Source: Watersipora subatra (lineage: Eukaryota > Bryozoa > Gymnolaemata > Cheilostomatida > Watersiporidae). Taken from it: a DNA stretch of 64,000 nt. This document shows, one piece after another, positions 26,613 through 57,529 of this stretch; positions within the stretch are counted from its first letter, which is position 1; each line of letters opens with the position of its first letter. Made by a program: the position numbers and the translations under genes. The stretch covers positions 34,336,121 through 34,400,120 of the forward strand of contig NC_088711.1 of NCBI RefSeq assembly GCF_963576615.1. Direction: 5' to 3'. The notes under the pieces were generated by a model. It saw nothing but the letters and a program-made list of their open reading frames with translations, was not told the DNA's origin and made no database searches.

Positions 26613-27571
26613 CTAGTTTATACCAAAAATGTAAGCACTCTCATGCTTTGCTATGTGTTTTATCGCATTGGTGTGGTCCTGAAGGTATCGTGATCGAACA
26701 GGCGCGCTGTGAGACCGCTGGTGCATCAATTTGTGTTTTCGCTGCGCGTATACTCTCGGGTTGATATGTGGTTTCTCATATGTGATGTAATGATTAGGAG
26801 AATGGTACCAGGCAGCCTTGTGCAGTGGCTCTACAATTCTGCTAGGTCTTGTGTAACCAGCAACGCTAATGACTGAGCTGTTTGGTCCCAAGGTTGTTGT
26901 GCGAAGCTTCTCATGTATAGTGTGAGCCCCGATGTCATGGCACTTATGAACTTTAGCCATAGAGGAGGCGACTCTCTCAGTTGGTGTGCGACCTTGCTTA
27001 GAGAGCTTAGGGTCATGACGATCTTCAGGATAGTACTTTTTAAGAACTGACTGTTTTATTGAATGATCAGTCATCCTACTTACACTTGTACAATCGTTGG
27101 TATAACTCCGGAATGTTCTTGGGCTGCTAGCAACGCTTGACTTTTGACTGTCAACCACTTTTTTACTTGGAACTAGTTTGACTGCATCTCCATCTCCTAG
27201 TCCTGTATCACACGGTGTGTCTCTGATGGGGGCAGTTTTCGGTCTCTGTAGAAGAGTTGGTGCAGTCTTGGGCCGCTTGGCAAAAGCTTTTTGAAGTCTG
27301 CTTTCATTTCGTGGCTTTTCAACATTGAAGGCACTTTGTGGTCGGATAATAACGCTTCGGGAACTCTGTGAAGGTGGTCGCTGTTTTCTTGTGACTGATT
27401 GGTTGTATTCAAGCAAAGCTTTTTCATGCATGCTCAGCTGGCTGAAAGGATGAACTGATGAGCGATTATCTACGGGTTGAGCAGCACCAAATTCAAACTG
27501 TCCGAGTTGCAAAGATATTTCTAGGTCATTGAGAAGGTATATCACAGTTCTTGTAGCTTCATGTCCACTAC
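26613..27571 (-). CDS. TTC41: TTC41-like last exon
   Basis: The acceptor TTTGCTACAG leads into GSGHEATRTVIYLLNDLEIS, the end of the TPR region. About 300 residues of basic, Ser-rich tail follow (RPPSQSSRSV, RPKTAP twice, RSHSAPVRSRY), ending YIFGIN and a stop. It is unusually long beside the other exons and probably disordered. Confidence 0.85.
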
Positions 27572-30500
27572 CTGTAGCAAACAAAATCACTTGATATTTG
27601 ACAAGGGTGTGCCTGAAAGTCTGTTTTCGTTAGCCATGTTGATTTACTATTTCCTATTAATCTGGAGAGCCCAGCTTGTGAAGTAGCAATCATTTATTTT
27701 CTATGTTTGGGAATAGTTTAGCACATTTGAGAGTTTATATAGCTGTTCATATACAAAAAATCATAGTAGCACTCTAATGAGATTACTGTGTATTTAGGCT
27801 GCTATGTATGAAGCTAGCAAGTTTTTCTTTGCTGATCAGTTAACAATATAACATAGCATGTCCTGTGTGACCCATCATTTACATTTTGTGGTTCGGAGTA
27901 ATGCCTCGCATGCTAAAGATGTGGCAACTTCAATCTTGCAAACTGAAAAATTAGACAAGATTTTAAACTTCACCTTATGAGGGTCTCGTCTAGCAAGCTT
28001 TCTGTACTTACGTCATATGGGTGGTGTGATGGCTTAGTTTGCTGAAGACAACAATAAAGGTTTAAAAATTGAAAAGTGTAAACTACAATGATAAGCATAA
28101 TCTGTTGTTTTATGACACAGTAGTGGCCTATAGCATAGCCTTTGCTTTCAATGGCTTCAGTAAAGCATGACCAGCATATTAGCATAGGATGAAGGGGAAT
28201 TCAAGAAGCAGGGGGATAATTCCATAATCCATCAGCCAACTCTATCTGCATAAGGAGAACATCTAACTATTGAGTTTGCTATAACGTTTTAGCTCTGAGC
28301 TTGGTGCTAAAGGCCAATACAAGTTAATAAATGTAATGTTATAGTCAGCACCTTTGTTTATTTAGTTCAAATTCTACTGCTGTGTGACCTAAATGAGAAT
28401 TGACAAGTTGTACCATATGGGCAGTAAAGCACGCTTAAAACAATGACATGTTAATTCATTGGTGTATTTTTGTATCAACTTTAGCCACCACAAATCCAAA
28501 AAGATTTAATATATTTTTTTTATCTAAATGATAAGTTTTAAGATTGTATAGATTTGTATTTACATAAAAACTGATGAAATAGATTACCAAGGTATAAGGT
28601 ATATAAGGCATCCTATAAAAGGATGTACGTATAAGGATCCTATATCTCTTATAAGGCATCCTATCAAGCTAGTAATAACAGGGCCGGAGGTTTTAGTAGC
28701 TGTTGACAACAATTTGCTAAGAACAATATTAAATTAAATATGTGATATATGTGCATATTTGTGATTGAATAATTAAATATTAATGATTAAAAATTAATTA
28801 AATGTGTTAATTTAAATTAAATATTTAATTTGAATATTTTATTAAATAATCAAACATTAAACATCATTTAAATTAAATGGGTACATATTAAACGTTTGCA
28901 ATATTAAATGTGTGCATCGACGTAAAGTTATCGGCGCCAAGAATTGCCATGAGCCAAGTCAGTGCTGTATGCAGTAGGCGTACTACTGTTCCACTACCAC
29001 CTCTGTCAGCTTTAGCAAAGCTCCACCCAGCAGTTATTTTTAACATATCCCCATAGTTACTTTGCGGCCTGGTTAGAAAATAACAGAAATTTTTTATTTG
29101 TGCCACAGAAACACTTTGGTTGCTTGTAGTTCCATAACTATCAATTCGGTGATTCAGATTGAAGATGGATGGCAAATGCTATTTAAATGTGATGGATAAA
29201 ACAAGGTCGCAAGTTACAATCAAATTGAAGATATAATAAATCTATAATTATTTCTGCATCCCAACTGATAGCAGATAACAAAACAAGTGAAACATTTTAC
29301 CAAGCTTATTCGTGCGAATATCGAGGCAGTTTTGCAAGAGTTCCAATGCTTCCTTTTTTCTTGTTTTGCTGCCTTGCTTTTGTAGGAGGAAAGAAAGCTG
29401 GAAAAGACTTTCAGCTGTTGCCAGATTGCCAGTATTTATTTCTCTCCTAATGTTTAAACCTTTCCAAAGGTATTCTTCGGCCAAACTCAAGTCACTGAAA
29501 TGTAGAGTAAAACTTTCCATAAAAATCATGACATTTATATACATGTATATACACAGTAAACAGTTTACCCTCATACTACAAGCTTCCACAGTGTAGAAAC
29601 AAATACAGTACACATTGTGGTTCAATCCTAGGCATGAACACTACTTTGTATTGGTCAGGGTAAGTGAAACTCCCCATTATTCTTTCTCAGCACTATAGGT
29701 ATTGCACTTCACTTCAATTCCGTATACACGTAATTCCATATATACCTACACATAACTTCATATACACGTATCTCCAAATACACCTGATTTCATATACACA
29801 CGATTTCACATGCATGCAACTTTACATACACGTAATACCATATACACATAACTCCGTATGCACGCAAGTCTGTATACATACATGGAGTTACATGTAACTC
29901 CGTATACACGTAACTCCGTATACACGTAACTCCAAATACATGTATGTATACATAAATGTATCCAGTATATACAAAAGGCACTCAGTAACTTCAGAAACAA
30001 TTTAATCACGTGGAGAAGTAGAGATCAGTAGCTCGCTAGAGGTCGAGGCCACAGGATAGAGGGAATGATGTAAGAAACTTGGCACTTAACACTGTTCACC
30101 TGGTCTCAACATTGTCATCATCAGAAAGAAGTTTGCCAAGGCTGTGACTGATTTCTGCTACTGCTGGATGCAGTGTACCAAATTTTTGCTCAAAGTAGTT
30201 GAGGCACTTGAGCAAGTAGTTGGTAGAATTTACATAGTCCTGTTGAATGCCCCTGCAGTGAATAGAATAAGACAGAATGAATAAGGAACCACTGGACACA
30301 TGCTAAGGTCTACATGCCAGTAGCGGAAAGCAGTTCAAATATGACTTGCTACAAGTATGTCGTGACTAAAATGTCTGGTTATAATTATCTTTTACGAGAA
30401 CAATGTAAAAAAAAAATTTCACAAATTTTTATATTTTTCAAAAGTTGTTTACAAAAGATTTTTGAACATGCTCGTGAGATCCAAATCAGAAGCTTTGTGT

Positions 30501-33500
30501 AGCATTTAGAAGTTATGTTATAATAAGTGCACTAACATCTGAGGACTGAGAATAACCAGCAAAATATACAATCGTTTTTATACAGAACTGACATCGATAT
30601 TAAAGTATAATAAGAAAAAAAGGCAATGGTATGTAAAGAGAATGTCTAGTCTAAGAGACATATCAGTATAGTCTGAGAGACATATTAGTATAGTCTGAGA
30701 GACATATCAGTATGTGATAAAAGGTAATACGACTGTTAATGTGATTATATTTCTAATGAAGACATGCTGGATTCCATGTCATCAATAACATTTTGTGAGG
30801 GGATAACTCCAAAACTAATGGCCTTATCCAACTGCGTTATTATCACTGCACTTAAGTGACTGTCCTTCCTCCCCTCTTGCTGAGTGACTTATTGATATGA
30901 TAAATGAGCAAATATGAGCTGGTGTCAAAGGTTATTGTAACAACAATAAAATGCCTATAAATTATAGGAAAATAAAATCCTGCCAACTAAGAGACAGCGA
31001 GAAAAACACGATTTTAACTTTTTGAAAATAAAAACCTCCTTTAGCTCATTCTTCAAGTTTATTAGCTAATGCTACCAGAAGGTGATGCCATGATTATAGC
31101 ATTGTGTAAAGTTGAGCTGAAAAGAAGTATAAAAAATGCTGTATGTTAGCATACAGGCCTGTATTCCCTGGTTGCAAGTTGGGGTGGCAAATGTTAGGCG
31201 GCTAGTAATGAATAGCCGCCGAAAATCATTAAAAAAGATGGGGCGGCTCAGCCGGCCAGCCGCCCCAAGGAATACGGGCCTGTTAGCATGGCTACATAAA
31301 ATACGCGTGCAGCTTATTTCATGTTAACACGCGAAGATAAAGCAAGTTGTGAACAATATAGAGAATTACAACATACACTGTTTCCATGACTCGCATGATG
31401 CGCGAGTTTGAGCCAGTCCGTAAGTTATCCGCAAATTGCAAACGGCATGAAACGGCAAACTAAGCGGGTTTTGCTACTCGGAAAACTTTATCGAATTCAT
31501 CATCATGCTTGCGAATGATGAAAACGGCACTAGCGAACGATACGTATTAAAACATCACGCAGGCTATTCCATTCTAAACATTTTCAAGCTTCGATAGTTT
31601 TTATTTCAATTTGAGCAGCCCCAATGTTCCGAACGAATGCTGCCAAGCTAAATGTGACAAGACTGCGTAGCTATTTATAGGGTCATTAATTAGGTTAATA
31701 TTTTACCTATGGAGTCAAGCGCTGACATTAAATGCTGACATTAAATGCTGACATTAAATGCTGACATTAAATGCTGACATTAAATGCTGACATTAAATGC
31801 TGACATTAACTACTGACATTAAATGCTGACATTAAATGCTGACATTAAATGCTGACATTAAATGCTGACATTGAATGCTGACATTGAATGCTGATATTAA
31901 ATGCTGACATTAAATGCTGACATTAAATGCTGACATTAAATGCTGACATTGAATGCTGACATTGAATGCTGATATTAAATGCTGACATTAAATGCTGACA
32001 TTAAATGCTGACATTAAATGCTGACATTAAATGCTGACATTAAATGCTGACATTGAATGCTGACATTAAATGCTGACATTAAATGCTGACATTGAATGCT
32101 GACATTGAATGCTGACATTGAATGCTGACATTAAATGCTGACATTAAATGCTGACATTAAATGCTGACATTAAATGCTGACATTAAATGCTGACATTAAA
32201 TGCTGACATTAAATGCTGACATTAAATGCTGACATTAAATGCTGACATTAAATGCTGACATTAAATGCTGACATTAAATGCTGACATTAAATGCTGACAT
32301 TGAATGCTGACATTGAATCGTGCAGATGTTCATTGAAACACTAAATTTGCACAAAGAAATGCACATCGTGCGCCGATCATCGAAACATAAGGATTGTGTC
32401 TCAGATTGTCGTTAAACTACCTTAATCTGATTAGTACTGTTTTGATTATTATTAGTTCTAGCAACCTGGCAGCGCGCTGTGAAAGATCGTCAGATGGAAT
32501 AACTATACGTACAATTGGAGCCGTTGTTAGAGTCTTAGCTACCATGCTGAGAGTCACGAAATTTCAAATTCCACATGATGCAGTATTTTTTCCCAACCTC
32601 CATCTACGGCTTAGGATGATTGGATGGACACGACTCTTATTATAGTAAATATTATTAGTAAGGTCACCAGGAACCCAGTGAAAAGAATCACTATACGCAT
32701 GATATACAATACATTCTTATATCATGATTTTACATTACATAAACTGGCGAGTATATAGAGATAATCTAACTCTGGTCCTTGCAGATGCCCAACAACCATA
32801 GCCAATACAAGACAGTTACTATATCATACCTGAGCAGCGCCAAGTTGTAGAGAGTGTACATGACTCCTGAAGTACAGCTAATCTCCTCCATGGCCATCCG
32901 CGCCTCATCGATGTAGGTTTGAGCGAGAAGCAGGTCGCCGGATGAAATGAGCACTGCGCTAAGATGTGTCTTCAGCTTGGCTGTATAAGTGAAGGACTCA
33001 CCATATCATGTAATCATCATAAGTTAAGACTGAAGCATGACAGTAGGTGGTGTAAAGGTACGGCCACAAGTGCCGGTTTTTTTGTTGGTTTCAGCCAAAA
33101 TCACAAAATGAACAAAACACACAAAATTATTCGGCCGAAATTCACAGAATTGTCAGAGCCGTGCATGCACACCGAAATCGTCGCCGAAAGGCTTTTAATT
33201 GAATAAACAAACTATTAGCGAGCACAATTCTAGCAGCTTTGGCAATTTATATAGTCCGAGTTCTATGATAACTGGTCATCATAACTTATGGTCATAGTCG
33301 CTAATGACCGTCATTGAGTAAAAGAAACCGCCATGTTCCCTTTACTACTCCACAAGAATCAAAACCGCTAAGTGAAAGGCAGAAATATATATTTAATAAT
33401 ATATATAAGCATACAAGCAATTCAATGTGTGTGCATATACTGAACAGCATGCAGGAGACTGCCAGGGATCTCTCCCTGCCGTGGTTCATCTGGGCTCCTT

Positions 33501-36500
33501 ATACACTCTCTCATCCTTGGCTGGCTCGGCCCTATTGGTAAATCGGTAGCATGTTGGTTTCAGAAGCCGACCTTCGACCAACAGTCTCACTAGCGGCTGT
33601 GTCTTCTGCCAAGGCTAGGCTCGGCTCAGTCGTGACAGGGGGCTTTGAGGTCAGCTAGGCAGCCGGCCCTGGTTTTGGTGATCTTCCGCCACACTCTTCC
33701 CCCAGTGGAGGCCCTGACAGCTGTCTACTCAGCGTAGAAAGAAGAGATCAGCTGAAACCAGAGCTACATGTATATGCTTCATACTTTAGGTGCCAGATCT
33801 CGGTCTCTGCAAATGCCAGATCATCTCTGGAGAACTTTCGGGCCTGTATCAGGCTGGCAGTTTGAAGAGCTACTTCCTGCCACTGGCCTCCTGCCGGCGA
33901 TAGAGGGGCTTGTCAATTGTAGGCCTTTCCAACAGTCGGGCTAGTCATTCTTCCTTGCTAATCATCATTATCGCTAATCACCGTCATGGCTAATGGTGGT
34001 CATAGCTAATGATCATCATCGCTAATGGTCATCATTGCTTTCATTAATCAATCAAACAATTTAGTGGTCGTTATGATAAAATTGCTGTATATATTATTAA
34101 ACCATTTATAATATACCTTGTACCCCAGGTTACAATTACCCTTTTACAGTTTTTCACCTTACGGTTTTTCAACCTGCCATACGAATTTTTTTTCGCCACA
34201 CGACATCAACAAAAAATTCTCTCGAAATTCAAATTTGGGAGTTGGTGTGCTGAATAAGTTGGAATAAGGAAGATGCCGATATTCTATTCATCAAAATTTC
34301 TCTCACAAAACTTAAAAAGGATATGATGCTCGCGCTCTCTCAGTTTAATGTTATTTGTTATAAGCTACAGGGAAAATGAAACCAGAAACAAATAGGTGAC
34401 AAAATTTTAGCGACGAAAAAGTTGAAGTTTAGTAAAATACATACTAAAACTTAGCTTCAAGTATGTGTTTAGCAAACTAAATTCGTTTGAGTTAAATTCA
34501 AAGTTTGCTATTTTTCTGTCTTAAAGGTAAGAACTTCCTACAGCACGCACTGCTCATAGTACATAATGCTACATTTTATTGCAGATGATGACCAGTAAAT
34601 ACACTAAAGTTAATGTAGGTAACTATAGCTACTAAAGTTAACGTACTATTTCGTTACTAATTTTTAATATGTGCAGCACTTACATAATATTTTGATGATT
34701 TTACCAAGGGGTGTTTGCATTGAATAATAGCCTACTATGGGTTTCTATACGCCTCTACATGACATTTTCGCCTTACGATGCCATCACCGGAACGAATTAA
34801 TTTCGTATAGCGAGGGTCGACCGAAATTACTAAATCTTAATCTTAAAATATCAAAAACTCATCACAGAAACAATGAAACTGTAAAACTAGTGAAAGCTAA
34901 AAATAGCAAAAACTCATCACATAAACAATGAAACTGTAAAACTAGTGAAAGCTAAAAATAGCAAAAACTCATCACATAAACAATGAAACTGTAAAACTAG
35001 TGAAAGCTAAAAATATCAAAAACTCATCACATAAACAATGAAACTGTAAAACTAGTGAAAGCTAAAAATAGCAAAAACTCATCACATAAACAATGAAACT
35101 GTAAAACTAGTGAAAGCTAAAAATAGCAAAAACTCATCACATAAACAATGAAACTGTAAAACTAGTGAAAGCTAAAAATAGCAAAAACTCATCACATAAA
35201 CAATGAAACTGTAAAACTAGTGAAAGCTAAAAATAGCAAAAACTCATCACATAAACAATGAAACTGTAAAACTAGTGAAAGCTAAAAATAGCAAAAACTC
35301 ATCTCATAAACAATGAAACTGTAAAACTAGTGAAAGCTAAAAATAGCAAAAACTCATCACATAAACAATGAAACTGTAAAACTAGTGAAAGCTAAAAATA
35401 TCAAAAACTCATCACATAAACAATGAAACTGTAAAACTAGTGAAAGCTAAAAATATCAAAAACTCATCACATAAACAATGAAACTGTAAAACTAGTGAAA
35501 GCTAAAAATAGCAAAAACTCATCACATAAACAATGAAACTGTAAAACTAGTGAAAGCTAAAAATATCAAAAACTCATCACATAAACAATGAAACTGTAAA
35601 ACTAGTGAAAGCTAAAAATATCAAAAACTCATCACATAAACAATGAAACTGTAAAACTAGTGAAAGCTAAAAATAGCAAAAACTCATCACATAAACAATG
35701 AAACTGTAAAACTAGTGAAAGCTAAAAATAGCAAAAACTCATCACATAAACAATGAAACTGTAAAACTAGTGAAAGCTAAAAATAGCAAATGGTTGAATT
35801 TGACGAATTAAATTCCTACCATTACTGTCCGCTGTTTGGTAATTAAATTTTCAGCCATGTGTTTACTACTTAAGATTACTTCATTACTAATAAAGATTAC
35901 TTCATTAAGCCCCATTCATGACTTATTTGCTAAATTAAATTCTTAAATCACGTAATTTATTCTAAATTATATTCCAAATCATTTCTGCAATTTTAGCAAT
36001 TTGCAGTGAGTGAAGTCAGTGTAAGTGGTGATATGCTGTTTGAACACATCATTTTAGTAGCAGGTGATATGAATTTGCTAGTATTTGATGATAGATGCTG
36101 CCACGGTACATCAATGGTATAGCACAGTATTTTTACATGATATTTTTGGTTCCGTAAGGGTGCCCAGTTCATCCTCCCATTTGTATGGAGGGGATGGTTT
36201 AGTCGTCATCGCTGCGACCAATTTGCAGGTGGTCGGGTTACTTGTATTACCGGCAGCAGGTTAATATAGCCTGACTTGAGTTTAAGTTTCAAGTTTTAAA
36301 TGCAACTTAATCTACATTTCTAGCCATGTTGCATCACATTCATCGCTGGATAGATATACAAACTGGACTAGACGATTTTTTCAGCACATTGGTATGGACT
36401 TTTTCTGTTTCATTTTGCCGAGGATCATGACAGTGTAAATGAACATCTAGGTCAACTCGTAGAAACTCAAAAGAAAGGTAAACATCAGTGAAAAGAGTAT

Positions 36501-39500
36501 CTCTATCCATAGTGTAGACATACAACAGAAGTAGTAGCCACAGACTTGTGGGTCACCATCAAAGGTAGTATCTCACCCTTAATATAAGACAGAAGTAGGT
36601 CATCATAGTACCCTGTCTCATCACTGTCTGCATCACCCATATCCAATATGCACTCGTGGGCTTTAAAGAGTTGATCCAAGGCTAGCTGATAGTCCTGTCT
36701 CTCATTACTGAGGGATGAAAGGGTCTCATACACGTGACACAGAATATAGAGCTCCTCATTCCTAAGTGGATACTTCTGTAATAGATAGTTCTGTGAAGAA
36801 CGGCTGCTTGACGAATGGCAGCAGGTGCGGCCAATGTTTTCAGAAGAACAGTGTATCAAGAGAGAAGTGGTAAATCGATGGCAGCTTTGCGGAATACGTT
36901 GAATTTTAGTACAACTACAGAAAGGCAGATGGACGGTCTTTATATATAATTTATTAACTTTTTGGTAAGAGAATAATGTAAGCTGGCCAACTTGTTGTGT
37001 CAAGGTCACACATTGCTCTATGAGTTTTTACGTTTATTACTTAGGGTCTGAAAACCTAGGCTGACTGACTCTGTCGTCTGGCCTTCTTGTAACTCGCCCG
37101 TTTCGTTATCTGGTCTCCTGCCGTGTAGCCAACATGGATAAATGTTCAGCAACCATTTGTTTGTTATTTTTCCTTATTATGAATTTTTCTACTAAACATT
37201 TTAAACACTGACCTCTCCATCTTCAAACATAACACGTTCACATTTTGCACAAAGTAAATTTGCATAGAAAACTACCTGTTTCGCTGAGATGACTAGGCTT
37301 TGCAGAACTTCCTCTCCGAAGCTTCCGCCATCATAAGTGATCAGCAGCTTTGCACAGGTCAGTCCAAAATTCATGGCCTCTGAAAAACTTACAGCTTTGT
37401 TTATCAGAGTGTCGGTGTTTGACTCCTCGAGCGTGGAACTCCCGGTGACTGAAATTGCCGCTGTAGTTGCTCTAGCAATATCATCCGAGTTTCCAGACTG
37501 TATTTGTAGGTAAGGAAAAATAAGAACACGGCATGTGATAAGACAGCTTGTCATTTTAACAAAATCTTTGAGCCAACCTATTTTTCCCTTATGCATGAAA
37601 ATAACTACCCTTGTGTTTATACAGTACCCAAAATACACACTTCACTTATAGAGCCCTTGTGTTTATACAATACCCGAAATACACAACTCACTTATAGAGC
37701 CCTTGTGTTTATGCAATACCCGAAATACACACCTCACTTATAGAGCCCTTGTGTTTATACAGTACCCGAAATACACACCTCACTTATAGAGCCCTTGTGT
37801 TTATGCAATACCCGAAATACACACCTCACTTATAGAGCCCCTGTGTTTATGCAATACCCGAAATAGACACCTCACTTATAGAGCTCTTGTGTTTATGCAA
37901 TACCTGAAATACACACTTCACTTATAGAGCCCTTGTATTTATACAATACCCAAAATACACACCTCACTTATAGAGCCCTTGTGTTTATGCAATACCCGAA
38001 ATACACACTTCACTTATAGAGCTCTTGTGTTTATGCAATACCCGAAATACACACCTCACTTATAGAGCCCTTGTGTTTATACAGTACCCGAAATACACAC
38101 CTCACTTATAGAGCTCTTGTGTTTATACAATACCCGAAATACACACCTCACTTATAGAGCCCTTGTGTTTACACAATACCCAAAATACACACCTCACTTA
38201 TAGAGCGGCTGGTTGGAAGGTCAGCTGACGATATAAGACCTTCATGGCTTAAGGCAGTGAAAGACTGTGATGCTCTAGAGGAAAGAGTTGTCATCTTTTC
38301 TCTATGAAATAAAAATATCATTGCACATCACAGTTAGCACAGCAGAGCAATATATACATATGTACTGTACGTAAAAGTGTATAAACTGCCTATGTACAAT
38401 AGACAATATGTATGAACTTGCATATATACAATGAATGATATTAATTGGGTTATGCTACACATGAGTCATTTCCAGAGTTGGGTGGATGCTACACATGAGT
38501 CATTTCCAGAGTTGGGTGGATGCTACACATGGGTCATTTCCAGAGGTGGGTAGATGCTACACATGAGTCATTTCCAGAGGTTGGTGGATGCTAAAGGTGA
38601 GACATTTCCAGAGGTGGGTGGATGCTACACATGGGTCATTTTTAGAGGTGGGTGAATGCTACACATAAGTTATTATCAGCATCATTAATATTGTTTTATA
38701 GACACAAAGACTCATACAAAAAAGAAAATCCGCTCAACGGTATCTCAAAACTAATCGCGAGTTGAGAAAATCGTGACATAATTTCAAACATGTCGCAAAA
38801 GATCATGTCGCAAAAATGTGTTTATATTTTTAACCAGTTAAATGATGCATAGTTTTACTCCAGTGAGTCATAGTTGTGACTCAAGCCGTTGATGTAAACA
38901 GAGCAAAGAGGGAAAGAGATCTAATCACCTCAGTCCACTCTCGTCGTTGTTTGATGAATTAGAGGTCAATTGGTCAGCTTTATTAATTCTATTCCAAGCA
39001 TCACTTTTAGCCCTTGTCCCGTGTCTTGTTGCGGGCCTCTGTACGCTGTGCCTAACATCTGTCTCAGAAAACTGACTATAGACTGTAGACTGCTGCTCAG
39101 ACATTAGCAGGTTTTCATCTTCAACCACAACAGGTTTCTATGAACATAGAAAGAGTAGGTATAAGGATCTCTTGTGAAATGACACAATTTACTATGCGAA
39201 GCACATATAATACAATAATACAGTGCAATGTGACAAGTTTTAATAAGTAGGCAGTCATATACATGTATATACAGTAGACGCTCTTACAACGTAAATAATA
39301 CGTTCCGGGAATGTTTACATTACAGAGAATTTACGTTATACGAACTGTAAATTACATGCAAATTGCCTAATTCATTCCAAGATCATCCTAAACTCACCCG
39401 TTTGGCCCTTCAAATAGGAAAGACTAAATTTATCTTTTTAATTTAATGATTGTACAGTATATTGTGATATTTATGGTTTGTATTAACAACTTCTCTTTTT

Positions 39501-42500
39501 TTTATCACTTTCACTCGGTTTAGGGTTCGTGATTACGGTAATTGTATGATAAGTTACGAGGAATGTACACCATATTCAATTTTTTACTTTCTTCTAGTCA
39601 GCATGGTCTATGCTGCAACGAAAATTAATATTAAACATTATATATGTATAAATAACGTAAACAATAATATATATTTAGTATATGAACGTTGTATGTCAAT
39701 TTATCTGTCGCCAGGATTAAAGTTTAGGATAAAGGATAGCTTATAGGGAGACTCCAACTGGTATTCAGATTGGTAGGCTGACCCTAGTAACTTTACCAAT
39801 CTACCGCCTCTAAATATTTCTGAAGAATTGCGCAGTTACCTCTTCGAGTATATAATAGAGGTAAGCTTGTATGTTATCTTCTCTCTCAAGTGTGAGAGTG
39901 AAGATGAGGTGAGCAAGGTGAGCATTTTTAAGGCTATGGGACTCTCATTATTTAAATTGAATTTGAGAACTTGCATCGACTTTACGCTTGAAGTTATATG
40001 GAATTTCTTATTTTACATAATTCACATAAATTCTTTACGTTATGTAGAATTTATGTTATAGGAGTGTCTACTGTAACTTGAAATAAGCAAATAGAAATGT
40101 ATGCAGCGTGATCATATCTGTACAGAGTGTTATCTTCAACCATTAAAGAAATCAATGTTCAGAATTTAGCCTACATAATCATCCAAAAACATATTTTCAC
40201 ATGTTTGTTTGGTTTACATATTTGAAATCAGGACGCAATGAGAATTAATTTAATATATAATTTATTGCTATTCACTAAATTCACAATGATTAACAACGTT
40301 GTGAATGAAAATTTTAGGTTTCCAACAAAAAGTCCAGCTTATTTCGCGCGCCACTTTAGATGAAATTATTTAAAAAGACTAGAGTAGTAAGTATTTAAGT
40401 AAAGAATTAGTTTTAATAATGTTTAAAACATTAGCAATTGACAAAGACTCATACTGACCTCAATGAACTGAGCAGAGTGTGTAAAACATTAGCAATTGAC
40501 AAAGACTCATACTGACCTCAATGAACTAAGCAGAGTGTGTAAAACATTAGCAATTGACAAAGACTCATACTGACCTCAATGAACTGAGCAGAGTGTTTAA
40601 AACATTAGCAATTGACAAAGACTCATACTGACCTCAATGAACTAAGCAGAGTGTGTAAAACATTAGCAATTGACAAAGACTCATACTGACCTCAATGAAC
40701 TGAGCAGAGTGTTTAAAACATTAGCAATTGACAAAGACTCATACTGACCTCAATGAACTGAGCAGAGTGTTTAAAACATTAGCAATTGACAAAGACTCAT
40801 ACTGACCTCAATGAACTAAGCAGAGTGTGTAAAACATTAGCAATTGACAAAGACTCATACTGACCTCAATGAACTGAGCAGAGTGTTTAAAACATTAGCA
40901 ATTGACAAAGACTCATACTGACCTCAATGAACTAAGCAGAGTGTGTAAAACATTAGCAATTGACAAAGACTCATACTGACCTCAATGAACTGAGCAGAGT
41001 GTTTAAAACATTAGCAATTGACAAAGACTCATACTGACCTCAATGAACTGAGCGGAGTGTTTAAAACATTAGCAATTGACAAAGACTCATACTGACCTCA
41101 ATGAACTAAGCAGAGTGTTTAAAACATTAGCAATTGACAAAGACTCATACTGACCTCAATGAACTGAGCAGAGTGTTTAAAACATTAGCAATTGACAAAG
41201 ACTCATACTGACCTCAATGAACTGAGCAGAGTGTTTAAAACATTAGCAATTGACAAAGACTCATACTGACCTCAATGAACTGAGCAGAGTGTTTAAAACA
41301 TTAGCAATTGACAAAGACTCATACTGACCTCAATGAACTGAGCAGAGTGTGTAAAACTTTAGCAATTGACAAAGACTCATACTGACCTCAATGAACTGAG
41401 CAGAGTGTTTAAAACATTAGCAATTGACAAAGACTCATACTGACCTCAATGAACTAAGCAGAGTGTGTAAAACATTAGCAATTGACAAAGACTCATACTG
41501 ACCTCAATGAACTAAGCAGAGTGTGTAAAACATTAGCAATTGACAAAGACTCATACTGACCTCAATGAACTAAGCAGAGTGTTTAAAACATTAGCAATTG
41601 ACAAAGACTCATACTGACCTCAATGAACTGAGCAGAGTGTGTAAAACATTAGCAATTGACAAAGACTCATACTGACCTCAATGAACTGAGCAGAGTGTGT
41701 AAAACTTTAGCAATTGACAAAGACTCATACTGACCTCAATGAACTAAGCAGAGTGTGTAAAACATTAGCAATTGACAAAGACTCATACTGACCTCAATGA
41801 ACTAAGCAGAGTGTGTAAAACATTAGCAATTGACAAAGACTCATACTGACCTCAATGAACTAAGCAGAGTGTGTAAAACATTAGCAATTGACAAAGACTC
41901 ATACTGACCTCAATGAACTGAGCAGAGTGTGTAAAACTTTAGCAATTGACAAAGACTCATACTGACCTCAATGAACTAAGCAGAGTGTGTAAAACATTAG
42001 CAATTGACAAAGACTCATACTGACCTCAATGAACTGAGCAGAGTGTGTAAAACTTTAGCAATTGACAAAGACTCATACTGACCTCAATGAACTAAGCAGA
42101 GTGTGTAAAACATTAGCAATTGACAAAGACTCATACTGACCTCAATGAACTAAGCAGAGTGTGTAAAACATTAGCAATTGACAAAGACTCATACTGACCT
42201 CAATGAACTGAGCAGAGTGTGTAAAACATTAGCAATTGACAAAGACTCATACTGACCTCAATGAACTGAGCAGAGTGTGTAAAACTTTAGCAATTGACAA
42301 AGACTCATACTGACCTCAATGAACTAAGCAGAGTGTGTAAAACATTAGCAATTGACAAAGACTCATACTGACCTCAATGAACTAAGCAGAGTGTGTAAAA
42401 CATTAGCAATTGACAAAGACTCATACTGACCTCAATGAACTGAGCAGAGTGTGTAAAACATTAGCAATTGACAAAGACTCATACTGACCTCAATGAACTG

Positions 42501-45500
42501 AGCAGAGTGTGTAAAACATTAGCAATTGACAAAGACTCATACTGACCTCAATGAACTAAGCAGAGTGTGTAAAACATTAGCAATTGACAAAGACTCATAC
42601 TGACCTCAATGAACTGAGCAGAGTGTGTAAAACATTAGCAATTGACAAAGACTCATACTGACCTCAATGAACTGAGCAGAGTGTGTAAAACATTAGCAAT
42701 TGACAAAGACTCATACTGACCTCAATGAACTGAGCAGAGTGTGTAAAACATTAGCAATTGACAAAGACTCATACTGACCTCAATGAACTGAGCAGAGTGT
42801 GTAAAACATTAGCAATTGACAAAGACTCATACTGACCTCAATGAACTGAGCAGAGTGTTTAAAACATTAGCAATTGACAAAGACTCATACTGACCTCAAT
42901 GAACTGAGCAGAGTGTGTAAAACATTAGCAATTGACAAAGACTCATACTGACCTCAATGAACTGAGCAGAGTGTGTAAAACATTAGCAATTGACAAAGAC
43001 TCATACTGACCTCAATGAACTGAGCAGAGTGTGTAAAACATTAGCAATTGACAAAGACTCATACTGACCTCAATGAACTGAGCAGAGTGTTTAAAACATT
43101 AGCAATTGACAAAGACTCATACTGACCTCAATGAACTGAGCAGAGTGTGTAAAACATTAGCAATTGACAAAGACTCATACTGACCTCAATGAACTAAGCA
43201 GAGTGTGTAAAACATTAGCAATTGACAAAGACTCATACTGACCTCAATGAACTGAGCAGAGTGTTTAAAACATTAGCAATTGACAAAGACTCATACTGAC
43301 CTCAATGAACTAAGCAGAGTGTGTAAAACTTTAGCAATTGACAAAGACTCATACTGACCTCAATGAACTAAGCAGAGTGTGTAAAACATTAGCAATTGAC
43401 AAAGACTCATACTGACCTCAATGAACTGAGCAGAGTGTTTAAAACATTAGCAATTGACAAAGACTCATACTGACCTCAATGAACTGAGCAGAGTGTGTAA
43501 AACATTAGCAATTGACAAAGACTCATACTGACCTCAATGAACTAAGCAGAGTGTGTAAAACATTAGCAATTGACAAAGACTCATACTGACCTCAATGAAC
43601 TAAGCAGAGTGTGTAAAACATTAGCAATTGACAAAGACTCATACTGACCTCAATGAACTGAGCAGAGTGTTTAAAACATTAGCAATTGACAAAGACTCAT
43701 ACTGACCTCAATGAACTGAGCAGAGTGTGTAAAACATTAGCAATTGACAAAGACTCATACTGACCTCAATGAACTAAGCAGAGTGTGTAAAACATTAGCA
43801 ATTGACAAAGACTCATACTGACCTCAATGAACTAAGCAGAGTGTGTAAAACATTAGCAATTGACAAAGACTCATACTGACCTCAATGAACTAAGCAGAGT
43901 GTGTAAAACTTTTTTCTATAAAATGATTTCAATGTGAGAACATTACAACATGGAATGTTGGAATGTAAAATTGTAATTCATAAATTGCATTGTAATTTTG
44001 TAACATTATACAATGTTATAATGTTACAGCATTACAACGTAATATCAAATGAAGACAGAAAAGAATTATCGCGCATTATACAATGTGACAAGTGCAGACA
44101 ACTACAGCTAATGTTAACCGATGTTGGATGAAAATTCTACAAAATTTAAGTGTTTAACGATACCATGTTATAAAAACTAAAGACAACTCCAACAAACATA
44201 GCACAGATCTCAAGGATTTTACCGATAGCAATAATATTGTTAACACGGGTCCAATGACCTTCACATTTATTCAAGGTCTTTTCCCAACTCAGGTAATATG
44301 AGCTAACTCCCAGCAAATAAAGTCTAATGTTCACCACACAGCTGGTGAATTTATCAGATTATCTCTTCAAACCAACTGACTGCAAAACTGTAACCAACTG
44401 ACCACAGAACTGTAACTGTTACAATGAAATATCATACATGTATTATAAGCATCGAGAGCTTTAAATTATATAACACTTAATCTAACGTGTGGCTACTGAT
44501 CAATATGTGGATAATTTAGAATAACCTGTAATCCTTGAAATCCTTGCTCGCTTAGCTGTTGTCTGATCTTTGAATCCAAGTCTACACGCTTTTCCTTGAT
44601 AAGCTTCCAAAACCGCACAAGTTCAAGCCTGAGAGGATTATATGTTGAGTAGATGGGGCCGTAGAGCTTGTCCATGACACTGAAAAACCAGAACAAAGCG
44701 GACCTTCACTCAACAATATCACCTCTAGAAGTGTTTGCCATAGGCAACTGTTTGAGCAATTTCACCACCTAAAATCGTAAACTGAATCGAATGATCCATC
44801 TGTACTGGATTGTGGCCGATAGCGGCCATGCCTATTCTCATCAATTGATCTTACCATAATATTCCTTCTGCAAGAATCTGGTTAATGAGATTACTTTTTA
44901 AATGAATCTAGAATTTTATTGGCCACAAAAAATAGTACAATCACCCAACCGTTCAATCACCCAGTATCGTTTGTTCCGGTAAACGAGTGAATTGAATTTT
45001 AATTTTCGTCACAATTTTGCTAAAGATTTAGCTGCCAATGTTGCTGTCCTAAGCGGCTTTCTATAAATCTGTTGTAATATTTAATAAAATTCATAGAATA
45101 AAGGAATAACAAATAATATAAATCAGTGCTTCGCTTGGAACCTTCAGTACTCTGCTGAAGTCAGCTGAGTACTTAACCAATAACTAATTTGATCTTAGCG
45201 ATGCTTTGTTAGTAAATCGTAACATTCATAACGTCTTTATTTTAGGCCGCCACATCGGAAAAATAGATGAAATCATACGAAACCTCTGCCTATATGAAAA
45301 TTAAACCTCAACTTTTTAAGCATTATTCAAATATGCCATCAAATTGAGTGAGGTATAATGACAAAGTTTCATTTCTAGAACACACCTTGGAATCATAAGC
45401 ATGTCACAGAGTTTGATGTGTTCACCAGAGATTTCCAACTGCCACAAAATCTCTTCAATTCTTGCAAGCTGCTGATCTGCTCTCTTGCTAGTAAGATAGG

Positions 45501-48500
45501 AGGCAATGGATGCATGATATTGCTTCCTCGCCATTCCTCCCTGCCTCTCTAAGTTCCGTGAACTCACACTCGTCTCATGCAGTGATGGAGGACTTATGTT
45601 ACCTGTAAATACAGAATATGTTTGCGAGTTGTCACACATCTCAGACAATGATTTTCGCATCTGGTAGAAACTTCTGGTAGATGAGACAACCTTTTATTGC
45701 AAGAGAAAATAAAAAATAGTTACAACTTCTCAAAATATGTATTTGTCTGTGCAATAAGGCGCTAGCTCTTTCGATCGTGTACTTTAGATAATCCAAAAAC
45801 AGCATGACAAGTTAAAACTACAATTTCCAGGCATATCTGACCAGCCAAGAAAAGGTGAAATATTATCATGTTACAGCGCTATTTTTAGTTGTAAATAATA
45901 GCCTACGGGGCGGACAATAAAATTACTCAGTGTTTATATCCAACAGAACTTTCTAAATTTTGTCTAGAAGATAAAAATCCTGTTAAAAGCCGACTTCTAA
46001 CAGGCGGCATGAAAAGAAGCAGATGACTAACCAACATGCAGAGAACCATATTAGGAATAACTTGCAAGGATGGAAAAACAGGTGGTTGGCAGGTGAAAAC
46101 AGGTGGTTGGCAGGTGAAAACAGGTGGTTGGCTGGAAACCAAAAAGATTAAAGGGGATGTTTTATATGTAGAAGAGAAGAGACAGACTTGAACTGCGTAT
46201 GTTAGCAGAATGACAACTAGACAAAAACAAAATAGTAAAAGAATACAGAACGGAAGATAGGATGAGGAAATATAAAAATCTGCAATATAAAAACTCGTAA
46301 GAGAAAAGTGAGACCCTGTAAAGACAATGGGCAGACAATGGACAGACCGACACAGAACAACAGAGACCAGTATGGGCTGACAACGATGAAATTACAAGCA
46401 ATTACTGTAGATCACCTACATATATAACAAACAAAAACTAATATAGGCAGGTGTTTCAAATGATAGGTAAAGCGGTATCTTTATTTACCTGTCAAATGTG
46501 GAGCATTACATTTTGGGCTTTTATTTGGCTGAGTACAAAAAAATCAGAATGCATCGATACAACACTCGTAGATATCTCCAAAAACCTCATCTTAATTTCC
46601 AATAGTATTGAAAATGTGGTGATGCAGTAATAATATGCTACAGGTTCCAGCAAGTGACAAGGTTTTTAACTTTTCTTACCTAGGAGTAGAAAGTCAATAA
46701 CCTCTACTAGATGTTCATGGTTGATGATGATCAAACCATTGGGTTTCTGATAGAGAGCCGGTCGAGCGGCATCATAAAAGAGGCACCAATCATAGTTGGT
46801 GACAGTTCTGTCACCTAGGTAGCGTAGGCAACTAGACAATGTGCCCAGTATTTCAGATACTGTCAGGCCATCTCTGGAGCAGGCCAGAAGTCGCAGACAA
46901 TCAGGAACCCATCCGCATATGACTAAAACAAAAAAAATCATAAACATAGTGCCACCCAGAGAACATTCTAGATACCTATAAATATGCAGTCACCAAGAGA
47001 ACATTCTAGATACTTATGGAAATATACAGTCACCCAGAGAAAACTCTCTAGAGTTCTAAATATAATTTTAGAGAACATTTTAAGACACAAGAAAGAAATG
47101 TTAAGTAGATGTTTTCTAAATATAGAAATAAAATGGTTGACTCGACCACTTGCTATAAAAACAACGTGAAAACGACAGCTTAATTTCCTTAATAAACTAT
47201 GTCAAGACTGAGCCTCAACATTTGGAGCGAAACCATAGAAAGGAAGATAATTAAATAGAGTATTAGAGTTGTACTTCCAGATTTGATTTGTTAAAATGAG
47301 AGAATAAGAGGATGTAACCAATCAGATGGAACATGGCCAACATTTATGAAAAGATGAAATTAGCTTAAAACTACAAGCGCACATTGTATCATCAGATGTC
47401 ATAACACAATTGTCAAAAATAATCTAAATGCTGTAAAATAATTATTGATCAGAAGTAGAAAGATAAAAAGTTGCAATATAAACTTGGTCAGATCAGGAAA
47501 AAAATTTTAAAAAATTACAATTTAAAACAAGTTCTTAGAAGCAAATCTCTGCTTGAAACATCAAATTTTTGTTAAACAACTTTCAACGGTGGCCATTGAT
47601 GCTCCACTACCTACAAATGATCAAATTATAGCAAAATAACACAATGTATGAGGAACCATACACTGGGAAAGAGTTTCTATCACAGAAGACTAAATGCATG
47701 AAAGCTGAAAAATCAAGGTTAGCAGAAAGGAATCTCATCAAAAATAATTTATAATGCTTCATAAAATCTCAGAAATGATTTAAAATACCCGACGATACAA
47801 AGGAGGGCGATGATCAGGCTATCACATAGCAGTCGACGCTACAAGGAGAAGATATGATGGGAGTAATAAACATACATAGACCTTATATATCTGTAGGGCG
47901 GGCTCGTGACAGACGCCCGTGTGATTGCTTACACGAGCCGGTTCGGAGCATCAAAGAAGACGTCAAAAGAACCTATGCTAAGGATAGTCCAAGTTCATTC
48001 ATGGGGCAGTAGTAACTGATTATCATGAGTTGTAAAGGATAAAATTCAGAATTTAGCAATTTATAATAAAAATAGCAAAAATTTACAGGCTAAACGATTT
48101 TCGAGTCAAAACGATGTCACAGACGGTTTTAGTCAAAATTTGATAGCCAAAATAATATAGCATCTAAATATATAAATCTCAGTGTTTGACATTTGGTCTG
48201 CCTGCTGTGTGTTCTGTTGTAGCCATAAAGTTTTAAGCATGAAAAGTCCGCTTCATACTAGATTTGAACTCAAATTCTTCAAGGCTGCATACCGGCGATC
48301 TAGACGACTAGACTACATGTCCAGCTAACCTAACAGTGCAGATACTTATGCACCTGCCAACCTTTAATGGCTTCAGGTTTCGGCTATCATCGCTTCGCGC
48401 TTCAGTAGCACGCTCCAAAATAATGATTGCGTGAGAGCTCATGACCCAATTTTTTCCTAACGATGGCTTGATTTATAATAACAAATCTTATTAAAGTAAA

Positions 48501-51500
48501 AATTTAGATTAGCTTAAGTTGCTCAAATTCACTAGGTAAAAAACCTTTACCCAAACTTTCAGAAACTTCTTTCAAAAACTTTTTTGTACAAAAGCTTTTT
48601 TAGTACTCACGCAACACTGGGCATTCAGCTAGTATAGTCTTAAAAAGCAACTAAAATGAACATGAAACGTCCTCCAATTGTAAGTATTAGTCGACTGATG
48701 TGCTCAATTCAAAAATATCGATGACTTGACCTCGACATTAAAACTGGAATATGTAGGTCAACTTGCTAATACAAAGAGAACATTTTGTGAACTTATGATA
48801 GTAAACAACAAAGTAGGATCTGGAGCAGGGATGATTGAATAACATTAAAGATAAGTTACTGTAATTAATATCTTAAGATTAACAGTTAGTCACACTCGCA
48901 AATCCTCATTTCTATATGTTCCCATGATCTTTGTATATCCTCAACAACACAAAAATTTTTACTCGATATAACAAACAGCTTTGGACAAATATTAGTCAAA
49001 CATAGACACAGTTTCGTAAGAAGGTATAAAAAAATCTGCTACTTGATCGTGATTGGTCAAAAAGGTGACCAGACTGATACTAGTTACTTAATAGTATTAA
49101 ACCTATACTAGATACTTAATAGTTCCAGACTGATACTAGCTACATAATAGTACCAAACTGATACTGGTTACTTAATAGTCTCAGACTGATACTAGTTACT
49201 TAATAGTACCAGAGTGATACTGGTTACTTATAGTACCAGAGTGATACTTGTTACTTATAGTACCAGAGTGATACTGGTTACTTATAGCACCAGACTGTTA
49301 CTACATACTTAATAGTACTAGACTGGCACTAGTTACTTAATAGTACCAAACTGATGCTGGTTACTTATAGTACCAAACCAACTACAAACCTGTATCCTCT
49401 AAACGATCAGTCTTGCTCTCCAGCCCTGTCTCATCCTCGTACCGTTTCCAACTGTAGTCTCTCACCCAACGCTTGACCAGACTCGTCCACATATCTCGTG
49501 TGCTGTTTGAGATACTGTCTAGGTTGGCATAGACATCTATGTGAGCGGTAATGTCGCTGCAACAGAACCAGAGCATTAGTTTGACCCAGAAGGCAAGTAC
49601 AAAAGCTAAATGATGTAAAGTGTTACAGTAGACAGACAGAAGAACACGGATGAATTTTGAAAGACACCAAAATGATCTTACTCTACGCAGCAGCATCATA
49701 TTATCAGCACATAGACATAGACACACAAGACGTCGAGAGACAGCAAACAAAAATCAACAGCGACAATCTGGCTAGTACAAGCGATACTGCCATTGAAACT
49801 TGCACTGCAGCTGCCTTGTTCTTTCCTATATGAAAAAATGAAAATGGATAAAAATAAAAGTTCACACTTATGGCAATTTTTATCAACGGAATATCTTGGC
49901 CAAATCTATTAGCCAATAGATGACCGCATTGTGTTATCATTAGGGGCCTACAATTAAGTAAGTAATCTGAATAATAATGAAGTAATCTGTATATGTTATA
50001 AACTGTCTACTCAAAAATATAAATATAAATCATTCGTAGTCTAAACAAAGACAAGATAATGATGCAGTCTTGAGACAATCTGAGAAGTTAAGTTGACCAA
50101 AAAGTTAATTAAATTTGAAAAAATGCTGCCTTTCCCTAACCCTGAGCACTATGGTAAATGCCAAAGCATTACCATGCCAAGAATGTGGTATGATGAGGAG
50201 ATATTTACTGTAGATCAAATATCAGGTGCTGCAGGGCAAAATAGAACACTCACCTACAGACATATATGTCACTCAGCTCGTTGGCCATTATGTTTAGATA
50301 AAGCGGAGACGAGCTGAGCTTATACTCTGTAATCTGCGACACACTATCACTGTCCAATACTCTACTGACTGGCTGAGACAACACAGGTAGATATGACTCG
50401 AGTATTTCTATCTTGTTCTGCAAACAAACACTCAAGAGTTGTCTTCTATACAAACAGACAACTTCTCCACTAAATGATGAGATATTGACTTTCTTGTCAA
50501 AAAAAACAAAAAAGATAGATGTTAAATAAAACTTTGTATCTGATAAAAGACTATCATAAAGTTTCTGATATTCGCTGAGAAGAAAGTAAAGATGACAGGC
50601 CTGTTTACCGAGTACTAAAACTTGAGACTGGTTATTAAGGAACCTCATTACTTAGAATAGCTTAGCAGCGCTAAACACTCTCCCATAGATATATATTATG
50701 ATTTATCACAAATATTATCACACATGTCACAATATTGTCTCCTCCTCAACAGGATATCGAAATAATATTCACTCCCCAGCTCTTAGATTATTGCACTGCC
50801 TTTTAGGAGTCACTGTTAATCACACATGTCAATTTGACAGCATACTTTTAAGACTTGACTAAAATAACCGTATGGCAATGTGTAAGTGTTATTCAATAAA
50901 ACAAAAGCAAAGTTAACATTACTACTGATGAGTACACTGATGATGCTACATAAGTTAACATTACTACTGATGAGTACACTGATGATGCTACATAAGTTAT
51001 GGTTAAGTTTTAGTTTATGATGATGATGAACTTGATAGAGTGTTTCTTATGTTAGTAGTTTTAATCTTCAAATCATAAAACTAACATGTTCTCTCTAAGT
51101 TCTTTCACCCAAGTCTATTTCGTTTATAGTCTAGTCTAAGTGGGAGAGGCTGAACTAGGAGTTTCTTCCCCCATTCCCAGCTTATTTAAGGGTAGACAAC
51201 TCCTTTTATAGTTCTTCAGACTAATGAAATTTGTTGACAATGTAAGATAACGAAAAATAGAAATCCTACAGCCACACTCATGTAAATAATGTGTCACTGT
51301 TGTCAAATTATTAGTCTAAGCGCCTGATTATTAGTCTTAGCACCTCATGATGTTCACTTGAGCACCTGTTGATTGCATTAGTTGAGTATTGCATTGTTGA
51401 CTGTCTTAGCCTGAGTACATGAGAAATGTGTTAGCCTGGTTGAATGCTGATGGTGTTGGTCTAATCATCAACTGAGTGTTTTTAACATGTGCACCATGAA

Positions 51501-54500
51501 AACCGATGGTTATGATACGTATTAACGTCAGCTAATTTTTAACAAGCAAAAGTTGATTCGCTATGGTGCAAGAAAATATAGCCAGCGATTCTTCTGCAAG
51601 CATACTTTACGCGAGGCATGCTCAAACTGGTTGATATCTCTGCTAGTATACTAATGTCATGGCCAGGAATATCATGCTTTTTTACATTGGCTAAAGAAAA
51701 ACTGTTTCATAGCAAAAAGCCATAGAAGCATACTTGCTGGGAGCTGATAGCGCTGCAAGAACAGAAGATGACATCCTTCCTTTTTCGAAGAGATTTGACA
51801 CTAAGATCGGAGTCTGTAGCGGTGACTATCAACTTGCAAGTTGGAGGAAGAAGCTCAGGAAGCCACTTCATCTGCTTCATCTTTATTCAAATGGCAAACA
51901 AAATGTTTTTATGTTTCAGTAGAGCTAAAAATTATTCATTTTAACAAAGAAAAGCTATTTGTATGATTGCTACTGTGTAAATTACAAAGTTTATCAATTA
52001 AATCGACAAGCCTCTTAGTCCTTATCTACAAAAATTTACATACAGAGTTCATACTAGCTTGAAGAAAATCAGATTTTTTAAAATTTCAGCTAACGAATAA
52101 AATAAGTTTACCTATATACTTGAACAATGATGATAAAGAGGCAAAACTCTACATTATGCTTTGTAAAAATATAGAAACAATAAACCTTCACTATATTAAG
52201 AACAGTATCTGTATATTCATCTGTAGCCATGACAAGAGCGTTAGGAAAAAAGATTGCCTCCCACAGGAATCAAGCCTGGGACATAAGATTCAAAAGCAAG
52301 CTCGCTACCACTAAACCACTTGGTCACCTCATGTCTCTATGAGATACTTTGCATATACTAGTTACTCATGACGATCTCTTACAGCGCGGGGAACTGGCAA
52401 GAGCACTGGTTAAGAATAAAAATATAATAACCAACTAATATTGAGGATTTATATATTTTTATGTTTTAAAACGCATGAATGCTGCCAGGTGTTAAAATAG
52501 TAGTTGTCTCCCCCTGATTATACTTGCCTTTTTCGCCCTCTAGTACCTGACTTCTTATTGCCAAAACACCTTAGAACAGAAAAAGTGACTAACCTCCAAC
52601 ATACTGTGACCAGTAGAAGCTGCAACCTCATCAAGTCCATCAAAGACAAGGAGACATGGGCCCAGGGCTAAAGATGCAAGGAAAGTTTCTTTAATCTGGC
52701 AAAATTCAGCGTACTCGCTCTCCATAGAAAGGACATCAACTGTTAAATAGAACAAACATTGAACATGATGACAGATGGCGAGACAGCGTTATACGTATCC
52801 ATTGCAACATACTTATAAAACACAAATATTCTTAATTGTGTATTATACTTTATCAATGAAATTCTAACAACGTTATTATTTTATTAATGTCATTATTATT
52901 ACTAGTACCCTGGCAGTCTGGTGAACAGCGAGAGATGCTAAGGTGTGCCAACAGAGGGCAGAGATGAAATTTGTGAACAACTATTGTGTGCTAATAGAAT
53001 GCAAATGGTTAGTGCAAGTAGTAGTGTGCTTGTCTGGTGGGTAAAATGTTGTGAGTTCAAATTGTGTTTGATGCAATCATTTTCTCAACCCCCACCTTTG
53101 GACAGACAAGTGGACACGACTCTTATTATAGCAAAAATTATTATTTTAGAAAAGCTATTTTTACAAACAGCAAGTTACGCAATATCTGACTTTAGACAAG
53201 AATTTTAAGAACACAGCTAGAATGTAATTTTCTTGTTCAAATCATGGCTCCTGACCTGAATACTGTAGCCAAATTAAATGCATTGAGCAATTCATCAACT
53301 TGGTACTCCATGGCAAAGGTTCTCCACTCTAAACTGAATCAGAAAAAAAGCGATAATAATTAGAGCTAGTGAATTTGGTTTTAAACTAACCATATTTGGC
53401 ATCAAAGGCTCTACGCAGCTCTGTAATGCAGCGCTTCATGAAGACAGCGATATCTCTGGCCATTCTATTACATGCTGCGTAGTGACGAACAACGACAGTG
53501 CCAGGCAGAAAGGATTCATTTTCTAGCCAAGCTGAGACAAGACTAGTTTTACCACAACCTCGGGGTCCAGTCACCACGAATACCGACACATGGTTTAAAT
53601 TATCGGCCTGCGTCTGCTTCCGCCTATCAATTAGATCAGCTTGATGTTGTATAAACCTGTTGAATAGCGCAGAGAATATAAGCACAAGCATTCTTGAGGG
53701 GCTCTACATCAACCTATCAATTTTAATCTAGCGAACTTACGCTGCCAAGTCTATCGTATGCTGCCAATAGCGCCTATGCTTCTGACCATACTCTACGCTC
53801 TCAATTCTACCGTTTACTACCAGCCTTAGGATATGAGTTAAATTTTCAATCCTCCATTCTATAACTTAATCCTTTTGAGTATGCCTCTCCCTCTTCATTA
53901 CCCTAAAGGCTCAAACACACTAAGCGATATCTAGCACGATATCGCGCGGCGTGCTGCCAATCTGTGCTGGAACTCTCCCAGCAGATTGATGCTGAGCGAT
54001 AACACTAGACTTTCTCTATCGGAACTTTATCGCGTGCGAGATGCATTTCAATTGGTTGTTTTTTTTTGCAGAACACAATGCTCTTGCTGCTAATTTTTTG
54101 TGTCTATGTTCACCAATGTACAGCAACAAGATTTTGCTATTTTGTTACGATCGAAACATGAAAATGAACAGTGAATTGTCCATAGACTTAATAAAAGCAC
54201 ACCCAGTCCTGTACAACACAACAAACAATGATTACAAAGATACCCAGTTGAAAACCAACATTTGAGAGTCAATCATTGCGCAGGTTGGCCATCTTGAGAA
54301 TAGTAAATATTTATTGTATTAAAAGTAAAAAACTACTATAAAGTAAACTGTGTATGAAAATCGTAAAGTATTACTGTTAAAAATACAAAAATCGTTTTTT
54401 TCTTAATTCATTTTGAAGCGTACAAATCGTGAAAGTGAGATGGGCCTAATAACAAAAACATAAGTTGTTAATGGTGTTGTCTAGAAGGCGTCATATTGAC

Positions 54501-57422: not shown

Positions 57423-57529
57423 CTGCAACAATTTTAAGTTTTTCGATTGCAGCATATTAGAAAGTATCAAAAAATAAGGGTTCAAACGGCATCAGAAGGA
57501 ATCATTAGAGGAACTACAAGACTACCTTA

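Follow-up and report, generated by a model that had tools for sequence, protein, structure and literature searches.

In a stretch of 64,000 nucleotides (nt) from the genome of the bryozoan Watersipora subatra (contig NC_088711.1, positions 34,336,121 to 34,400,120; hereafter the window), a 58-bp repeat occurs in about 60 tandem copies within a predicted intron of a TTC41-like gene on the minus strand. Each unit looks like a tiny exon with its own splice sites, and an earlier note on this DNA had read the array as a satellite made of 60 copies of a 9-nt microexon, each accompanied by a 49-nt intron. We conclude that the array is most probably (at a rough probability of 0.86) an ordinary intronic minisatellite confined to a single locus, whose units are splice-like by chance and which is excised with the intron. 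Splicing of the units is unproven and, in our judgement, unlikely.

Tandem Repeats Finder reported a period of 58, 60.2 copies and 98% matches at 40420-43909. On the minus strand, 60 exact TTCATTGAG blocks follow one another at a constant spacing of 58 nt throughout, which bears out the 60 tandem units of the earlier note, and GAGGTCAGT is likewise present in 60/60 units. The first block, a candidate 9-nt exon that would encode Phe-Ile-Glu in phase 0, lies at 43881..43889, with its TTAG acceptor inside the partial first unit; the last candidate exon of the 60 lies at 40459..40467. A search of the whole 783.7-Mb genome with a 26-nt core of the unit, allowing at most three mismatches, gave 60 matches (counts of repeats in this search may be lower bounds), every one of them inside the array, the lowest being G000:C4:34376562-34376587, or 40442-40467 of the window. 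The reversed pattern, searched as a control, gave 0 matches. With BLAST, the unit gave 10 matches, all within the array and none elsewhere. The confinement of the unit core to one array rules out dispersed satellite DNA, with arrays at many places, so that the label satellite has to be replaced: head-to-tail, near-identical units of 58 bp fall within the range of about 10-100 bp that defines a minisatellite.

Interior variation is limited to four unit positions, namely 38 (A in 6 units), 45 (A in 18, counting the end copy), 52 (changed in 1) and 56 (T in 24). Positions 1-37 carry zero changes across the 60 units, and the final copy degrades at the edge of the array into the flank. The order of unit types recurs at a lag of four units (44% identity versus 24% in shuffles, P 0.0025, for the best of 15 lags tried on 59 units), a pattern to be expected if units were copied in blocks. 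That the variants spare AG and GT, to which the earlier note had drawn attention, is true in the array and says nothing on constraint, since only 4 of the 58 positions vary and would miss all 13 key bases (exon, GT and AG) 35% of the time (P 0.35).

The repeat was also considered as something other than intronic DNA. Reading through the array as coding sequence was rejected, since each of the six frames of the consensus unit, when tiled, contains stops. A structured RNA was rejected as well, a four-unit stretch having no unusual fold (z +1.53 on the minus strand, -0.16 on the plus strand); an Rfam scan of 38000-45000 gave no match at the gathering score. A phage collection gave no match, as expected.

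While the array, its single place, the near-identity of its units and their splice-site scores are observed, the gene around them is a prediction from sequence alone, obtained for the minus strand by dynamic programming, ten open stretches supplying the codon scores; one spurious exon, with a donor score of 0.2, was swapped by hand for a tetratricopeptide repeat (TPR) exon. The resulting TTC41-like gene (26613..57393, minus strand) has 17 predicted exons and a predicted protein of 1,535 residues with a single terminal stop and NACHT/AAA-type ATPase and TPR parts. Among Pfam families searched with the first 1,255 residues, TPR_12 scored above its cut-off (7.9e-9), and AAA_16, NPHP3_N, TPR_10, NACHT, TPR_NPHP3 and ATPase_2 were found below their own cut-offs, a pattern in line with a NACHT-TPR protein. 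The name TTC41, used in the earlier note, is a putative assignment and not a database match. Predicted exon 9 (44526..44679) ends in phase 0 and predicted exon 10 (38929..39137) starts in phase 0, and the in-phase flanks of the earlier note are therefore upheld as far as the gene model goes. Between them, predicted intron 9 (39138..44525; 5,388 nt, the longest of 16 introns) would hold the whole array, which begins 617 nt from exon 9.

The exon-like anatomy that had been claimed for the unit was confirmed in each copy. YAG precedes TTCATTGAG in 60/60 units (CAG in 35, TAG in 25) and the donor GAG|GTCAGT directly follows the 9 nt in 60/60, GTCAGT being invariant, so that every unit has the form of a microexon, here taken as an exon of 3-27 nt with YAG before it and GT after it. 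A plausible branch site, CTAAY with no AG between it and the acceptor, was found in 53/60 units by a scan whose thresholds were fixed after seeing the unit, and 52 of these 53 matches have TGC within 20 nt upstream of the exon. The acceptor is weak (0.31, -1.74 and -1.36 in three forms of the unit). Weak 3' sites with UGC nearby are also described for eMIC-dependent microexons in excerpts of PMC10250204 and PMC8797185, where CUAAY branch sites are mentioned in fly, and strong 5' sites in mammals but not in fly.

These shared marks (a very short exon, a weak 3' site, UGC near the acceptor and CUAAY), together with the phase-0 flanks, would suit a microexon of the eMIC (SRRM3/4) type, one or more units of which would be included, most likely in neurons, at a gain of Phe-Ile-Glu per unit. 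The strong 5' site would be recognised first, UGC and CUAAY would aid the weak 3' site, and copy number would set the number of chances for inclusion. We hold this to be very improbable, and just as improbable the broader proposal that 60 in-frame copies of a 9-nt microexon are spliced into the TTC41-like protein, with repeat number setting the frequency or the number of Phe-Ile-Glu triplets. Microexons of this class are defined by RNA inclusion, and those excerpts describe no case of 60 tandem copies of a microexon. A genome search for SRRM_C, the eMIC domain, gave 0 matches at E 0.001 (5 candidates scored) and is uninformative, as 14 control genomes likewise gave 0. What counts against the microexon is the size of its introns and the way in which the array was chosen, to which we come below.

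Splice sites were scored as a sum with a generic metazoan matrix that was not fitted. The unit donor scores 4.4, a value matched or exceeded by 8 of the 15 predicted real donors and by 37 of the 3,759 GTs on the strand; the donor of exon 12, at 37213, is identical to it (GAG|GTCAGT). The unit acceptor scores no more than 0.3, 14 of the 15 predicted real acceptors score at least 0.3, and 471 of the 3,723 same-strand AGs outside the array do at least as well as the unit. With a 15-intron matrix the donor rises to 10.2 (14/3,759 GTs on the strand are as good) and the acceptor falls to -0.4, with 1,505/3,723 AGs outside the array at or above it. As the comparison sites were picked by a gene model that itself used the generic matrix, real sites are favoured and the comparison is tilted against the unit; the sites of exon 16, found later, were left out. 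When a branch term was added (CTAAT, no AG before the acceptor; a matrix likewise not fitted, and fixed after seeing the unit), the consensus unit reached 9.8, near the middle of the range covered by 14 of the 17 predicted exons (scores of 3.0 to 14.8, with six higher and one equal in rounded values); in three common unit variants the score drops to 7.0-8.1. The gene model is unable to find exons as short as 9 nt and is therefore no test of unit inclusion. An origin of the unit from the gene's own donor at 37213 was considered and dropped, a BLAST comparison of the unit with the remainder of the window having listed no match there; the best match elsewhere in the window is a 14-nt exact one at 38704-38717.

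Scored against shuffled units, as the earlier note had proposed, the unit exceeded expectation with one matrix and not with the other. On one strand, the generic donor and acceptor sum gave P 0.0232 with mononucleotide shuffles, 0.0476 with dinucleotide shuffles and 0.0212 with random 58-mers from the window; with the branch term, P fell to 0.0097 in shuffles, and to 0.0019 in random circular 58-mers when the exon was also required to be a multiple of three. Depending on the variant, per-unit P spans 0.004-0.018. A first scoring, with the 15-intron matrix and a min() statistic, had shown no excess (one-strand P 0.49 with mononucleotide shuffles, 0.80 with dinucleotide shuffles and 0.39 with window 58-mers). 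Among 27 other arrays with a period of at least 20 and at least 3 copies, and without the branch term, the sum of the focal unit was reached by 1, its donor by 2 and its acceptor by 14. The resemblance to an exon is real and modestly unusual for a single unit, and the outcome depends on the score used.

Minisatellites abound in the region. In the window, 34 arrays with a period of at least 10 that do not overlap one another, the 58-bp array included, cover 10,934 bp, and 74 further arrays were found in twenty other 10-kb stretches, 6 of them near the window and 14 on six other contigs. Larger arrays (46 bp x 88 and 78 bp x 99) occur close by, and the size of the 58-bp array is therefore not exceptional in the region.

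Several results weigh against an array of chance resemblance. With the branch term, P was 0.0056 and 0.0042 against random circular 58-mers (window and twenty stretches), and the commonest unit variant gave P 0.013. By cassette score on both strands, the 58-bp array ranks first of 108 arrays. A strict motif scan (CTAAY, no intervening AG, YAG, an exon of 3-27 nt and a donor at least as good as that of the unit) found 53 units in the array versus 2 places in 521 kb of outside strand, both of the latter without TGC. All four variable positions fall in 38-58, the branch-to-acceptor part of the unit, and none in 1-37 (P 0.014, for a split chosen after looking). Finally, the predicted donor of exon 9, CAG|GTTATT, scores 0.6 versus 4.4 for the unit donor; it is the second lowest among 16 donors scored, the lowest (0.2) being that of the spurious exon since replaced.

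These points have to be set beside the way in which the array came to attention, as it was singled out for resembling exons. At P 0.0042, about one equally good unit is expected among the 216 unit-strands that 108 arrays on two strands provide, an estimate that is rough because unit lengths differ between arrays. The first rank is about what choosing the most exon-like of 108 arrays would yield, and this argues against the eMIC-type microexon.

The would-be introns of 49 nt argue against it further. The 16 predicted introns of the TTC41-like gene measure 422-5,388 nt, and 29 myosin introns of the same genome, estimated from 50 of the 75 places with a PF00063 match, measure 87-2,747 nt, although the shortest (87 nt) may not be an intron, both of its flanking matches being reported in one 456-aa open frame. 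Scoring allowed splice sites to be assigned to 7 of the 8 gaps in one myosin gene, giving introns of 190 to 1,808 nt. Because 49 nt is shorter than every intron examined, serial joining of neighbouring units is unlikely; one unit could be included between long introns. With so weak an acceptor and such short introns, the inference of splicing drawn in the earlier note is left unsupported.

Under the minisatellite explanation, a 58-bp stretch in the longest intron of the TTC41-like gene would have undergone tandem head-to-tail duplication and grown to 60 copies, presumably by slippage or unequal exchange. By chance, a good donor (GAG|GTCAGT), a weak YAG lying 9 nt before this donor and a CTAAT would have been present in the founder, and expansion would have copied these splice-like signals 60 times. 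Exon 9, ending at 44526, would be joined directly to exon 10, starting at 39137, and the array would be removed along with the intron, although a unit might on rare occasions be used cryptically.

An array that is excised could still act through its length. Its 60 donor-like sites might bind U1 or delay splicing of intron 9, a wall of decoys whose length would affect how far sequence around exons 9 and 10 is skipped or retained, with no unit being an exon. We think this unlikely, if less so than inclusion of the units. The gap between the unit donor and the predicted exon 9 donor speaks for it, as does the fact that intronic variable number tandem repeats (VNTRs) change splicing in two published cases. 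In TERT, VNTR6-1 (a 38-bp unit in 24-66.5 copies in intron 6) alters splicing according to the excerpt of PMC11830802, and, like the 58-bp array, it is a minisatellite within an intron, with a comparable number of copies and kilobases away from the next exon. It differs in that the TERT repeat is G-rich, G-quadruplex-forming, polymorphic and shown to shift splicing; the TERT effect is ascribed there to G-quadruplexes, and the 58-bp unit has no GGG run. In ABCA7, a VNTR of 25-bp units in intron 18, the first two bases of which are those of the exon 18 donor, alters splicing as excerpted from PMC5954066. There too the unit carries a donor, and a single unit can be retained via a cryptic donor; however, the ABCA7 repeat starts directly at the genuine donor of the exon, whereas 617 nt separate our array from exon 9, and the excerpt describes no microexon.

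A closer counterpart of the ABCA7 repeat, as far as the excerpt describes it, is another array in the window, of 46 bp x 13 (37608-38206, minus strand), which starts inside predicted exon 11 (38301-38193). Each of its units copies the end of exon 11 and the donor region, with GTGAG|GTGTGT in 8/13 units. In contrast to the invariant donor of the 58-bp units, the donor 9-mer is altered in 5/13, one of which has lost the GT, and the first four units, starting with the predicted real donor, are intact. Similarly, a 40-bp x 2.4 array (54683-54781, minus strand) extends over the final bases of predicted exon 2 and its donor, AGG|GTAAGT at 54778, so that the donor region is repeated. Two other arrays end near predicted splice sites, at 49068-49378 (12 nt from the donor at 49390) and 46953-47041 (31 nt from the acceptor at 46922). 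Arrays in the TTC41-like gene may crowd exon edges.

Stepwise removal of the intron by recursive splicing, with GAG|GTCAGT serving as a zero-length exon, has the AG|GT junction in 60/60 units in its favour. As an acceptor, however, the AG of GAG reaches no more than -2.1 in the consensus unit, with a better AG (0.3) 9 nt ahead of it, and the intron measures only 5.4 kb; we give this explanation hardly any credence.

Two further published systems show what tandem splice-like units can be. In the SmPoMuc genes of Schistosoma mansoni, a 27-bp exon 2 lies in tandem genomic repeats of about 1 kb, according to the excerpt of PMC2576457, and micro-exon genes are described in such excerpts as having exons of 6-81 bp. 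Tandem genomic units that each hold one tiny exon and intron sequence make SmPoMuc the model for reading the 58-bp array as microexons; there, however, the units are about 1 kb and transcripts were studied, whereas here the units are 58 bp with would-be introns of 49 nt. Introns are also reported to arise when a segment bearing AGGT is duplicated in tandem (PMC4974935); the excerpt cites fission-yeast genes in which introns lie across multiple 24-bp duplicates that carry AGGT. The repeated AG|GT in a tandem array is common to both situations, yet those duplications lie in exons and create introns, whereas the 58-bp array lies inside an existing intron. The 31-bp VNTR of CBS, c.1444_1467+7, spans an exon end, judging by that name. 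In the titles and abstract beginnings of the open-access literature searched, we found no minisatellite described whose unit is a microexon.

Other features of the region were noted. The 78 bp x 99 array (7.7 kb, L013:1676-9396) lies about 12-20 kb past the end of the window; its minus-strand cassette has a 3-nt exon and ranks second of 108 by microexon-cassette score. Within the window, arrays of 30 bp and 21 bp (55531-56452 and 57515-58187), the periods of which are multiples of three, have open frames of 107 to 310 aa running across them on both strands, which probably just reflects their period and composition. A tandem duplication of 284 bp x 2 with 100% matches (25398-25969 and 25849-26370, plus strand) overlaps a TMEM101-like open frame (PF15111 at 2.5e-17), and an open 813-aa frame at 60194-62635 (plus strand) belongs to a retrotransposon of the type lacking long terminal repeats, with endonuclease and reverse transcriptase domains.

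If the units were spliced, the repeat unit would be a complete exon-intron cassette, with copy number tuning the protein, and repeat instability would be linked directly to protein variation. If they are not spliced, as is likely, a founder with chance splice signals has been amplified to 60 decoy sites inside a gene, and the array would be a natural test of what the spliceosome ignores.

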